Shown here piece after piece: positions 9,792 through 37,605 of a stretch of 38,242 nucleotides of DNA. Where the stretch lies: assembly GCA_947646015.1 (NCBI GenBank), contig CANSEY010000036.1, forward strand, positions 1-38,242, written 5' to 3'. Each line of letters starts with the position of its first letter. The first letter of the stretch is position 1. The translations under genes were made by a program, and so were the position numbers. Source of the stretch: an uncultured Bacteroides sp. (GTDB taxonomy: Bacteria > Bacteroidota > Bacteroidia > Bacteroidales > Bacteroidaceae). The notes under the pieces are model-generated. The model had not been told where the DNA came from. It saw only the letters and a program-made list of their open reading frames with translations, and made no database searches.

Positions 9792-9827
9792 AAAGACGAT
9801 TAAGAAAGTATTTTGTAATCGGTCTTT
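9792..9827 (-). terminator. Terminator of the HTCS gene, overlapping the PL1 control region
   Basis: Read on the minus strand, AAAGACCGATTA (9827-9816) begins directly after the HTCS stop codon and pairs with TAATCGTCTTT (9802-9792) with one bulged base. A T-run (about six) follows. The hairpin arms contain both halves of the motif at 9793-9818, so the same bases may serve termination and the PL1 promoter. Confidence 0.6.
9793..9818 (-). promoter_or_regulatory. Shared two-part motif upstream of PL1
   Basis: In coding orientation the motif is TTACAAAA-N12-CGTCTT, ending 28 nt before the PL1 ATG. Spacing is identical to the copies before GH106 and the 37-kb GH2 gene. No TAnnTTTG element lies between the motif and the start codon, so the motif itself may occupy the core promoter. 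Confidence 0.6.
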
Positions 9828-12800
9828 CTATCCTTTCCGCCATTCATTCATATATTCACGGGGAGTCTGATTATATTTTTTGCGGAAACACTTGCTATAG
9901 TAGCCCGAATCTTTGAATCCGACAGCAAACGCCACTTCCGAAACACTCAAATCCGTATTTTTAATCAGTTCGATCGATTTATTCAGGCGAATCTCCTTTA
10001 CCAGGTCGACAGGTGCCAGTCCGGTAAGGCTTTTCAGCTTTTTGAAGAATGCCGAACGGCTCAGTCCGATGCCGGAAGCGATCGTATCAATATTGAAATC
10101 ACTGTCGTCCATGTTTTCCTCGATCACTTGGTGTATCTTTTCAAGGAACTGCACATCTTTCTTCACCAGATATTGTTCGTAGCTGTCTTCTTCCGTTGTC
10201 GTCTGGTTCTCCATTTGCTGGCGGATACGTTCGCGGAACAGTTTCCGTTCGCCGAGCAACTGATCGATCCGTGCCAACAGATACTCTTTGCTGAATGGTT
10301 TGGTTATATATGCGTTCGCACCCAGAGTGATCGCTTTGGTCTTGGCACCTTCATCGTTCTTGGCTGTCAGAATAATGACAGGGATATGGCTGATCTGAAA
10401 ATCCTTCCGGATAGATTGCAGCATTTCCAGTCCGTCCATTTCCGGCATCATCTGATCGGTCACTACGATGTCCGGATGATACAGATGCACTTTCTTCAGC
10501 CCTTCTACGCCGTTATTGGCTATATGGATGTTGAATTTATCTTCCAATTGCAGTTTTATCAGCTGGCATAAGTCTTTATTATCCTCTACCAGCAGAAGAG
10601 TCGGTAATGAAGCATCAATTTCCAGTTCCTCCTCCGGTTCCTTTTCTGAATCGATAACCATCTTCTTGTCTGTAGCGGCAGGAGCAGTTTCCGTATCACT
10701 GACATAGAAGTCTACTTCCGACGGACGATAATGGTCCTTGTCCAGCAATAGCTCTACAATAAACACGGCCCCCTGCCCTTCCGGACTTTCGGCACGGATG
10801 ATACCGTGATGCAGGTTTACTATTTCTTTGGAAAGTGCCAGTCCGATGCCCGTACCCTGATAATGTGGATTATTCGCATTCTCTCCTTGTGAGAAACGCT
10901 CGAAAATTTCACTCAGCTTATTTTGCGGAATGCCGACACCGTTGTCTTCTACCCGTACATAGCAGGATTTTCCATCATCTGTCAATCCGGTAGTTACATA
11001 AATACTTCCACCGGAAGGAGTAAATTTGAACGCATTCGATATGACGTTGCGGATAACAATACTCAGTTTGTCCTTATCTGCCCATACCATAATCGGTTCG
11101 TCCGGCAGTTGGAATGTGAAACTGATTTCATTTTCCTCCGAAAGTACACGGAATTCTTTTTGGAAGGAAGCTATCATTTCATTGAAATCAATCAATGATA
11201 CGTGCAGACGCATCTTGCCATTCTGAATCTTTCGGAAATCAAGAATCTGATTGACCAGTTGTAACATTTGGTTCGTATTCTTTTCCATCAGGTCCACGTA
11301 TTGCAGTCCTTTCGGAGACAGTTCTTCCCGCTCCTTCAGTTCTTGTATCGGTCCTTTTATCAGTGTCAGAGGAGTACGAAGCTCATGAGAAATATTGGTG
11401 AAGAACTTGATTTTCATTTCCGAGACTTTCTGCTCGATATAAATGTCGTTCTTCATCTTAATCATGAAGAAGGCCAGGCGCAGACCGAAATAGAGGGCCG
11501 CGATGCCAAGGATTACATAGATAAGAGTGGCCCACCAACTCAGCCACCACGGCGGAAGAATGGTGACAGCCAATGTACATGTGGATACAAGTTCCGGATT
11601 AGCTTCATCCATCGTTTCTACACGGAATACGTAGTCTCCGGGAGGAACATTGGTATAAGAAGCAATACGGTTTTTGCCGTTATAGTGCCATTCCTTCTCA
11701 TACCCTTCGAGTATGTAACGATAAGATACGCGATTCTGATTGTAGAAATTTAATGCAGCAAATTCGATTGTGAACATAGACTGATTATACTTCAATTGAA
11801 GTGCATCGGTGTATGTGATAGACTCCTGAATCGGACAGTCGTTCAAACTTCGAAGATTACGATTGGATACTTTAAAGTCTACGATACGGGTGTCATAGTT
11901 GGTATGTTGTGTCTCCAGTTTATCAGGAGAGAATGTCAGAATCCCCTGTCGCGAACCAAGCCATAAATCTCCGTTCAATGCACGCAACGCACTGCCTTCT
12001 TCCAGTTCAACATTCAGGAAACCATCGTATTTGTCGTAGTTACGGAACTGCTCTGTCGCCTTATTAAAGCAGGACAGACCAATCTCGGTAGTAAACCACA
12101 AATTTCCGTTTTTATCTTCCACGATGGACTTGACCACATCGTTATTCATTCCTTCACGTATGCCATATGACTTGAATATCGGTTCACGTTTTTCTTTGTC
12201 ATAGCGGACCAGCTTATTCAGACCTCCGCCGAATACACTCACCCAAATTTGCGAATCACTGTCTTTATATAGTACATAAATGTCATTGTCTGCCACATTG
12301 GAACGATCGCTGATCTGTCGGTACGTCTCAAACTGAATCTGTTCGGGAGTCGTAAAATGTCCGTCAAAAGACATCAGACCATCCATCGTACCTACCCAGA
12401 TACGCCCGTCTTCATCTTCCGTCATTGTACGGACTTCCATATACAGACCATAAGCGGGATATTGTTTCAGTCCGTTGTATTTATGCTTGAATACAAGTGT
12501 CCCGTTTTCTTCGGAAATCAAGTTCAGCCCTCCGCCCAACAGACCGACCCAGATACGCTCCTGACTATCCTGATAAGTGAAATACACATCATTGTTACTG
12601 ATAGTATTCGGATTCTTAGGATCATTTTTATAGCGGGTAAAACGCAGACCATGTGGTGAGTTCATATCCGGTTCGGCTTTGACAAGTCCGTTTCCCTTAG
12701 TGGAAAACCACAAGTTTCCTTCTTTATCTTCCATGATATGATATACGGCGCCTATCAGATAATTCTGATCCGTAAAAACCTGTTTTATCTGCCCGTTGCT

Positions 12801-36900: not shown

Positions 36901-37250
36901 ACTCGCGGAGGATCTATCTTAAACGGATAACCTGCAGATACATAAATAGGCGTGCCATATCCATTGACTTCCCAATTGGCAGGAACAGGAAAGTCCTTCC
37001 AGTCTTTATCATTAAAATCAGTCTGATAGAAATCTATGATTCTTTCGCCCGGAACAGGAGTCCATCGGAACTTCCATGTTCCGTCCAAAGACATCGAGCA
37101 GTCTCCTTTCTGTACGGAGAAAGGAGTAAAAGCAGCCCGTGCCGGTTTACGATTAATCTGGAGAACATGATGATTCTCCCAGTCATGCATTGTTTGTGCC
37201 TGCATCGGGCAAGCGACCAATGCGCCAAGCAGTAATGTATATATTTTCAT
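33972..37250 (-). CDS. LacZ-type GH2 beta-galactosidase
   Basis: A 1092-residue secreted enzyme with signal peptide ([19 protein letters not shown]). All five LacZ-type domains are visible: jelly roll (~45-225), two immunoglobulin-like domains, a TIM barrel with acid/base E490 in MGNESG and nucleophile E583 in SEYAHSMGN, and the C-terminal Bgal_small_N domain (~800-1090). DEADIEEHG marks the metal-site region. The frame is open to 37346, with ATGs also at 37268. The ATG at 37250 is preferred because it directly begins the signal peptide, follows a purine-rich stretch and keeps the motif at 37275-37300 at the same distance as in the other two copies. It leads a two-gene GH2 operon. Confidence 0.88.
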
Positions 37251-37605
37251 TCGTTCTTTTTTCTTCATACCAAGAAGACGGACGAAGGGGCATTTTGTAC
37301 CCCTTTCTTTTACATTAATATTAAAGAATAATAAAAGGAGAAACACTCTATGAAGGGTTGTCTCGCTTCACACGCACAGTATAAGCATACGATTGAAGAT
37401 CCGGAACTAAAACTGTAATTAAAATAAGAATATCAATTATTAAAATGCAAACATCGTTTTAACAATTAAGGTCTTGCGAATTAAAATACTCCTTCAGACA
37501 GAAGTAAAAACAGAAATGAATATCGTATTATCTTCCGGGAAATGGTTTTCTTTGTTATGTATTCATATCACTAATCTCATATTCTGCATTAAAAAATAAA
37601 AAGAA
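37251..37605. other. Divergent intergenic region, GH2 operon and PAS sensor
   Basis: No gene is seen. The region holds the shared motif (37275-37300), which overlaps a small hairpin with GGGG/CCCC core (about 37285-37306), and CACAGTAT at 37375-37382, which also occurs upstream of GH106. No clear TAnnTTTG promoter for the plus-strand PAS gene was found; TTTCTTTG near 37546 is the closest. Confidence 0.5.
37275..37300 (-). promoter_or_regulatory. Shared two-part motif upstream of the LacZ-type GH2 gene
   Basis: In coding orientation GTACAAAA-N12-CGTCTT, ending 24 nt before the ATG at 37250. The 14 fixed bases and the spacing are identical to the GH106 copy at 24320-24345. Confidence 0.65.

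Follow-up and report, generated by a model that had tools for sequence, protein, structure and literature searches.

A two-box motif before rhamnogalacturonan II enzyme operons of Bacteroides is a probable promoter of a locally encoded ECF sigma factor

Introduction

Three operons of glycan-degrading enzymes in an uncultured Bacteroides sp. begin with the same two-part motif, TACAAAA-N12-CGTCTT in coding orientation, which raises the question of what regulator reads it. The operons lie on contig CANSEY010000036.1 (GenBank assembly GCA_947646015.1), analyzed here from position 1 to 38,242 and referred to as the window. The initial annotation of this DNA gave the motif no identity, and it overlooked a gene for an extracytoplasmic function (ECF) sigma factor, a gene for a mini-FecR protein, and a fourth site. 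Below, we argue that the motif is very probably the promoter of an ECF sigma factor whose gene lies at 4192-4743 of the window. The likely substrate of its target genes is rhamnogalacturonan II (RG-II), the most complex plant pectin.

Results

An identical motif heads three enzyme operons

Scanning the window returned three exact copies of TACAAAA-N12-CGTCTT, each of 25 nt and all on the minus strand (9793-9817, 24320-24344, and 37275-37299), and no other copy; the initial annotation had located these three and placed each end one nucleotide too high. As it had stated, the end of CGTCTT lies 28, 26, and 24 nt from the ATGs of the genes for a PL1-type pectate lyase (9764), GH106 (24293), and the lead GH2 (37250), and the motif is missing at the starts of the hybrid two-component system regulator (HTCS), two-component, mgtA, thioredoxin, and MFS genes. 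No copy arose in 100 dinucleotide shuffles of the window, in agreement with the view that a chance origin is unlikely. The open reading frame (ORF) list picks a GTG at 37346, upstream of the motif, for the lead GH2; we take the ATG at 37250 as its start because of the position of the motif.

Two of the three exact copies carry a GA[G/T]TAC extension. When both strands were scanned with the wider core KTAC-N16-CGTC, it was found exactly four times in the window, at the starts of the PL1, GH106, lead GH2, and mini-FecR genes. The fourth copy starts at 4165 on the minus strand and heads the short gene that follows the ECF sigma gene. It deviates from TACAAAA-N12-CGTCTT at three positions; the window contains 21 matches of this quality, the fourth copy included, with 14 expected by chance. 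The case for the fourth site therefore rests on comparative evidence.

The motif recurs beside the gene for an ECF sigma factor

The sigma gene lies downstream of the PL1-DUF6298 operon and is followed by an 83-aa ORF, with the fourth site between the two. Over 193 aa, the encoded protein matched Sigma70_r2 and Sigma70_r4_2 only, corresponding to sigma regions 2 and 4. It scored 89.2 bits with TIGR02937, above the cut-off of 42.9, and its best match, the Bacteroidetes subfamily TIGR02985, stayed at 92.4 bits below the cut-off of 126.4.

We retrieved 50 loci with relatives of this sigma factor, 38 of which (L006-L043) share at least 52% identity with it; one of these, L040, was excluded from the site search because its contig ends. 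In 33 of the remaining 37 loci, GAGTAC-N16/17-CGTY follows the sigma gene at a distance of at most 250 nt, compared with 0.027% of shuffles. Sequence features expected of an ECF promoter were found together here: two boxes, a fixed spacing before the targets, and linkage to the locus of the sigma factor itself. We infer that the sigma factor encoded at 4192-4743 binds the motif.

Alternatively, the promoter could belong to another ECF sigma factor of the genome. Such factors can be unlinked from their targets, as described for SigW-1 and PUL59 (PMC12596196); the genome holds 43 region-4 family matches. Nevertheless, among the 30 sigma-type loci of this genome that were scanned, out of the 43 matches, the window's own locus was the only one with GAGTAC-N16/17-CGTY, and the presence of the ortholog of the window's sigma factor separates motif-rich from motif-poor genomes. 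We therefore regard a different sigma factor as very unlikely.

In four of the more distant loci (L045, L047, L048, and L049), the sigma gene is accompanied by a full-length fecR, preceded by GAGTAT/GAGTAC-like boxes. The -10 forms differ there, a hint at joint divergence of promoter and sigma factor.

Sites are enriched in genomes that carry the sigma factor

In the source assembly (4.9 Mb, 74.7% complete), we found five exact copies of the motif, compared with one for the reversed control pattern. The expectation that a genome-wide search would return few copies was thus borne out. Four of the five lie 24 to 30 nt before an ATG and the remaining one is inside an ORF. With one mismatch allowed, 15 matches stood against 22 for the control, indicating that mismatched copies are mostly noise, and they were left out except for one that has orthologous sites. 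This copy (G000:C56:15297-15324, locus L097), 24 nt before the ATG of a xylose-isomerase-like protein, is identical in two relatives and likely a true site. The start of that protein resembles a signal peptide.

Across 99 genomes of the genus, 28 carry the sigma ortholog (E<1e-55, the next matches being at 4e-39). These contain 57 exact sites versus 13 for the control, with at least one site in 21 genomes, whereas the 71 genomes without the sigma factor contain 7 versus 20. For the co-occurrence of site and sigma factor, Fisher p is 4.5e-10, a value uncorrected for kinship that overstates independence. The form GAKTAC-N16-CGTCTT gave 69 sites versus 14 for the control in nine sigma-bearing genomes and 52 versus 8 in nine further genomes. 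From the 69 sites we clustered 53, together with one from genome G009, leaving out 12 sites without an A after GAKTAC and four PL1 copies. Six of these 54 lacked an ORF, fell within one, or were over 70 nt away from an ATG; removing them left a set of 48. In this set, flanks outside the search pattern were also conserved (T before GAKTAC in 83%, A8 in 96%, and A9 in 98%), and the median distance from site to ATG was 38.5 nt.

The genes preceded by the motif point to RG-II

We grouped the 54 clustered sites by their first downstream gene. PL1 together with a second PL1 accounted for 10 sites, GH106 for nine, and an 899-aa protein for eight; the latter was assigned by NCBIfam to alpha-D-galacturonidase (1510 bits, cut-off 1300). 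Six sites each precede a URO-D/MtbA-like methyltransferase and a GH127 protein called as aceric acid hydrolase (1097.9 bits, cut-off 950), aceric acid being an RG-II sugar. The remainder precede the xylose-isomerase-like protein and its cluster-mates (four), a GH43-family protein (three), DUF4992 lipoproteins (three, in two clusters; leaders with the site occur in three other genomes), a DHDPS-family aldolase (one), and genes with single sites (four). Conservation of the motif upstream of orthologous operons in relatives, as initially predicted, was therefore observed.

The methyltransferase site is common to six genomes and in the source assembly lies on another contig (G000:C20:45368-45395, locus L096), where the gene downstream of the methyltransferase encodes a B12-dependent methionine-synthase activation domain. 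One may speculate that such a corrinoid methyltransferase could serve O-methyl sugars, the methyl groups of RG-II, or methanol from pectin.

A contig of the same species (G059:C3) was searched with a relaxed scan over bases 1-97000, keeping sites outside ORFs and at most 130 nt from one. All six sites obtained were at regulon-type enzyme genes, one of them an 824-aa ORF that, judged by eye, presumably resembles GH95. Further along the same contig follow the GH2, GH106, and PL1 sites and then the mini-FecR site, so that the sites extend across ∼116 kb, at the heads of nine enzyme genes or operons and of the mini-FecR gene. The initial annotation had proposed a regulon of eight enzyme genes over 28 kb; the shared regulon holds, and its size was set too small, given this span and the methyltransferase operon located elsewhere.

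Since the sites precede genes for PL1, GH106 (the ortholog of BT_0986), GH2, alpha-galacturonidase, aceric acid hydrolase, and a corrinoid methyltransferase, we consider it highly likely that the motif-bearing genes form an RG-II regulon; the pectic glycans originally suggested as substrates can be narrowed accordingly. BT_0986 of Bacteroides thetaiotaomicron VPI-5482 is the protein of PDB entry 5mqm, with an RG-II chain-B heptasaccharide as suggested substrate (PMC6828813). BT0997 is described as an alpha-galacturonidase (PMC7939467). Both alpha-galacturonidase and aceric acid hydrolase are RG-II activities. The locus BT0977-BT1030 has been assigned to RG-II and is induced by it (PMC3243724). 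Judging from gene content, the window appears to be the ortholog of the first part of BT0977-BT1030, with the sigma gene among its first genes; BT0978 was not found in the literature searched for BT0978, BT0981, and BT0986.

DUF6298 adjoins this sigma gene from Bacteroides to Paludibacter and Prevotella metagenome-assembled genomes. We found it in 37 of the 38 loci with a sigma ortholog (L006-L043), a linkage that suggests a core role in RG-II use.

The hybrid regulator may act on the sigma gene

A TAnnTTTG box precedes the sigma gene by 27 nt, the HTCS gene by 33 nt, mgtA by 46 nt, and the response-regulator gene by 37 nt, and none was found in the 200 nt ahead of any of the four genes of the window that carry the motif. 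This bears on the possibility that the motif is the operator of the neighboring HTCS, whose AraC-type domain would bind it and activate a housekeeping promoter. The HTCS gene is part of the same module and co-occurs with motif-bearing genomes as well as the sigma gene does. However, the three enzyme sites lie 24-28 nt from the ATG with no TAnnTTTG in between or up to 200 nt upstream, leaving no recognizable housekeeping promoter for the HTCS to activate. Moreover, the half-sites do not form a direct repeat, whereas direct repeats of 12 or 14 bp have been predicted as HTCS motifs at other rhamnogalacturonan loci (PMC3878776). The site after the sigma gene is also kept in L016, L017, L019, and L020, for which no HTCS homolog was found in the flank examined, although an HTCS ortholog is found elsewhere in the genomes of L016, L017, L019, and L022. 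Finally, an HTCS mutant retains 78% of growth on RG-II (PMC3243724). Taken together, we judge that the motif is unlikely to be an HTCS operator.

The lack of an upstream housekeeping promoter that would transcribe the motif similarly argues against a role in RNA, as a leader element for a protein or small RNA. The motif is indeed near the start codon and on the coding strand in every case, but no Rfam family was detected in the window, and the boxes keep a spacing of 16-17 nt while the spacer sequence is not conserved. We consider an RNA element highly improbable.

A conserved element at 4798-4863, located between a terminator-like hairpin and the -7 box of the sigma gene, could be recognized in numerous loci as far as Paludibacter (z reaching 8.4), though it is near background in several, such as L043 for both halves. 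No second copy was detected in the window and 15 related stretches scanned. This conserved element before the sigma gene suggests a cascade from HTCS to sigma factor to enzymes, with action of the HTCS on the sigma gene as the simplest reading. For such a cascade to agree with the mild HTCS phenotype, some sigma factor would have to be made without the HTCS.

Two related loci differ in gene structure. In Bacteroides acidifaciens DSM 15896 (L009:6294-9824), an ORF of 1176 aa consists of the first 679 residues of the alpha-galacturonidase fused to the last half of DUF6298; the sigma promoter is kept before this fused ORF, and the deletion took out PL1, HTCS, and GH106. In Bacteroides reticulotermitis (L015, G053:C90), the HTCS gene is split into two open frames, perhaps by a frameshift or an assembly error.

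A FecR reduced to its N-terminal region

The ORF that follows the sigma gene encodes what we call mini-FecR, which corresponds to the N-terminal, sigma-binding region of FecR alone and lacks any transmembrane or periplasmic part. The corresponding ORFs of 35 loci (76-97 aa) aligned with the N-termini of five full-length FecR proteins over 70 columns (hhalign probability 97.1, E 6e-11), and no membrane segment was found in them, the highest 19-residue hydropathy being 1.18. Of the five full-length partners, the two examined contain PF04773 and PF16344; three mini-FecR proteins tested gave no Pfam match. The AlphaFold model of mini-FecR is helical, with a mean pLDDT of 85.

Given the fourth site before its gene, the sigma factor probably drives mini-FecR, resulting in either negative or positive feedback. 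An N-terminal fragment of Escherichia coli FecR of similar size activates FecI without inducer, and a fragment of Pseudomonas FpvR inhibits instead (PMC9249621). Because these fragments act in opposite directions, whether mini-FecR is an anti- or a pro-sigma factor cannot be read from its sequence.

Observations that do not fit the assignment

Several observations weigh against the proposed reading. The site after the sigma gene is missing in four of the 37 ortholog loci, and its strict form GAGTAC-N16/17-CGTY was found in none of the seven more distant loci (L044-L050). Seven of the 28 sigma-bearing genomes have no exact copy of the motif. At seven of the 48 sites, a TAnnTTTG box intervenes before the ATG; six of these belong to the second PL1, a single orthologous gene. 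The site is also absent from both susC/susD leaders of G059:C3, and Foldseek found no match in the PDB for the mini-FecR model. In addition, the genus distribution fits the HTCS equally well: its ortholog occurs in 27 of the 99 genomes and the sigma factor in 28, with both in 26, and phylogeny cannot separate the two (five genomes, the 99 genus genomes, and three discordant genomes). Among the discordant genomes, G009 lost the HTCS through a deletion fusing two genes, G068 has its HTCS near a contig end, so that an assembly gap may account for the missing sigma factor, and the completeness of G055 is 87%.

Table 1. Coordinates of the features discussed, all given as positions in the window
Feature	Position	Strand	Evidence or remark
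Mini-FecR, 83 aa	3858..4109	-	hhalign to N-terminus of full-length FecR
Fourth, weaker site GAGTAC-N16-CGTCCT	4140..4167	-	30 nt before mini-FecR ATG; conserved in ortholog loci
ECF sigma factor, 183 aa from ATG at 4743	4192..4743	-	Sigma70_r2 and Sigma70_r4_2; TIGR02937
Housekeeping -7 box TAGCTTTG	4771..4778	-	27 nt before sigma ATG; conserved TAGYTTTGCA
Conserved ∼60-bp element, candidate HTCS operator	4798..4863	-	Alignment of related loci
Terminator-like hairpin between DUF6298 and sigma genes	4886..4910	-	Sequence; conserved in alignment
DUF6298 protein, operon 1	4920..8015	-	PF19815, 818 bits
PL1-type pectate lyase, first gene of operon 1	8082..9764	-	PelZ-like; NCBIfam NF041900, 140 bits, below cut-off of 840
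Predicted ECF promoter GATTAC-N16-CGTCTT, PL1	9793..9820	-	Exact motif; kept before PL1 orthologs in Bacteroides and Phocaeicola
HTCS	9828..14246	-	Own TAnnTTTG box 33 nt before ATG
Rest of operon 2: SASA esterase, DUF5703 protein, GH2	14441..20973	-	Domain search
GH106, BT_0986 ortholog (PDB 5mqm), first gene of operon 2	20976..24293	-	2563.7 bits, 1105/1105 residues
Predicted ECF promoter GAGTAC-N16-CGTCTT, GH106	24320..24347	-	Exact motif; same site at GH106 ortholog in 9/9 cluster genomes
Second GH2, operon 3	31068..33920	-	Domain search
LacZ-type GH2, first gene of operon 3	33972..37250	-	Domain search
Predicted ECF promoter GTAC-N16-CGTCTT (GGGTAC form), lead GH2	37275..37300	-	Exact motif; also in G059 and G012

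Discussion

We propose that the promoter has the form TGAKTACAAA-N13-CGTCTT, with TGAKTACAAA as a -35-like and CGTCTT as a -10-like box and 16 nt between TAC and CGTC. RNA polymerase carrying the sigma factor would start just downstream of CGTCTT, giving short leaders, and would transcribe the RG-II enzyme operons in the window and elsewhere as well as the mini-FecR gene. Mini-FecR would in turn bind the sigma factor, closing a negative feedback loop if it is an anti-sigma factor and a positive one if it is a pro-sigma factor. At the top, the HTCS may sense an RG-II fragment and switch on the housekeeping promoter of the sigma gene via the element at 4798-4863. More tentatively, the HTCS could thus control a single gene, with the ECF sigma factor alone driving the enzymes and a pre-cut FecR under sigma control locking the regulon on or off without any transmembrane signal from FecR. 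We see this joint claim, including that such a relay has not been described before in Bacteroides, as possible rather than probable.

The arrangement resembles the FecI/FecR systems of Bacteroides polysaccharide utilization loci (PULs) in that an ECF sigma gene is followed by a FecR-related gene and sigma-linked promoters are found on glycan genes. It differs in that FecR is reduced to its N-terminal region and the targets are mainly enzyme genes. The trans-envelope signaling usual for FecR of PULs (PMC3878776) cannot run through mini-FecR, which has no transmembrane or periplasmic part, and no SusC that would complete the canonical relay of sigma factor, FecR, and SusC was detected by Pfam among the 17 ORFs scanned in the window. 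A further likeness is offered by the E. coli FecR fragments (residues 1-59 to about 1-85), which are similar in size, come from the same end of the protein, and on their own bind FecI and render it constitutively active (PMC9249621); here, in contrast, a gene encodes only that part.

The GH106 of the window, as ortholog of BT_0986, links this locus to BT0977-BT1030 of B. thetaiotaomicron with its HTCS BT0981. For that system, the available text of PMC3243724 credits the HTCS, leaves two RG-II-induced PULs without a regulator, and names no sigma factor. Like the known promoter classes of B. thetaiotaomicron (sigma-ABfr with TAnnTTTG, PM2, SigW-1, and SigH-1), the promoter proposed here is of the two-box, -10/-30 type. 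GAKTACAAA and CGTCTT nevertheless differ from the boxes quoted in the accessible text, such as the TGTT at about -10 of SigW-1 promoters (PMC12596196), a comparison made without the PM2 logo. ECF promoters were called hard to predict in 2013 (PMC3878776), and as of 2020 no ECF sigma factor of B. thetaiotaomicron had a known recognition motif (PMC7366714).

For RG-II, the analysis puts forward a sigma factor together with its promoter sequence and its targets, with the corrinoid methyltransferase and its B12-reactivation domain as an unexpected addition to the use of this glycan. It also offers a candidate explanation for two earlier findings, namely that most growth on RG-II persists in the HTCS mutant and that two PULs induced by RG-II lack a dedicated regulator (PMC3243724). 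More generally, promoters could be assigned to many other orphan ECF sigma factors by inspecting, in orthologs, the DNA immediately downstream of the sigma gene.

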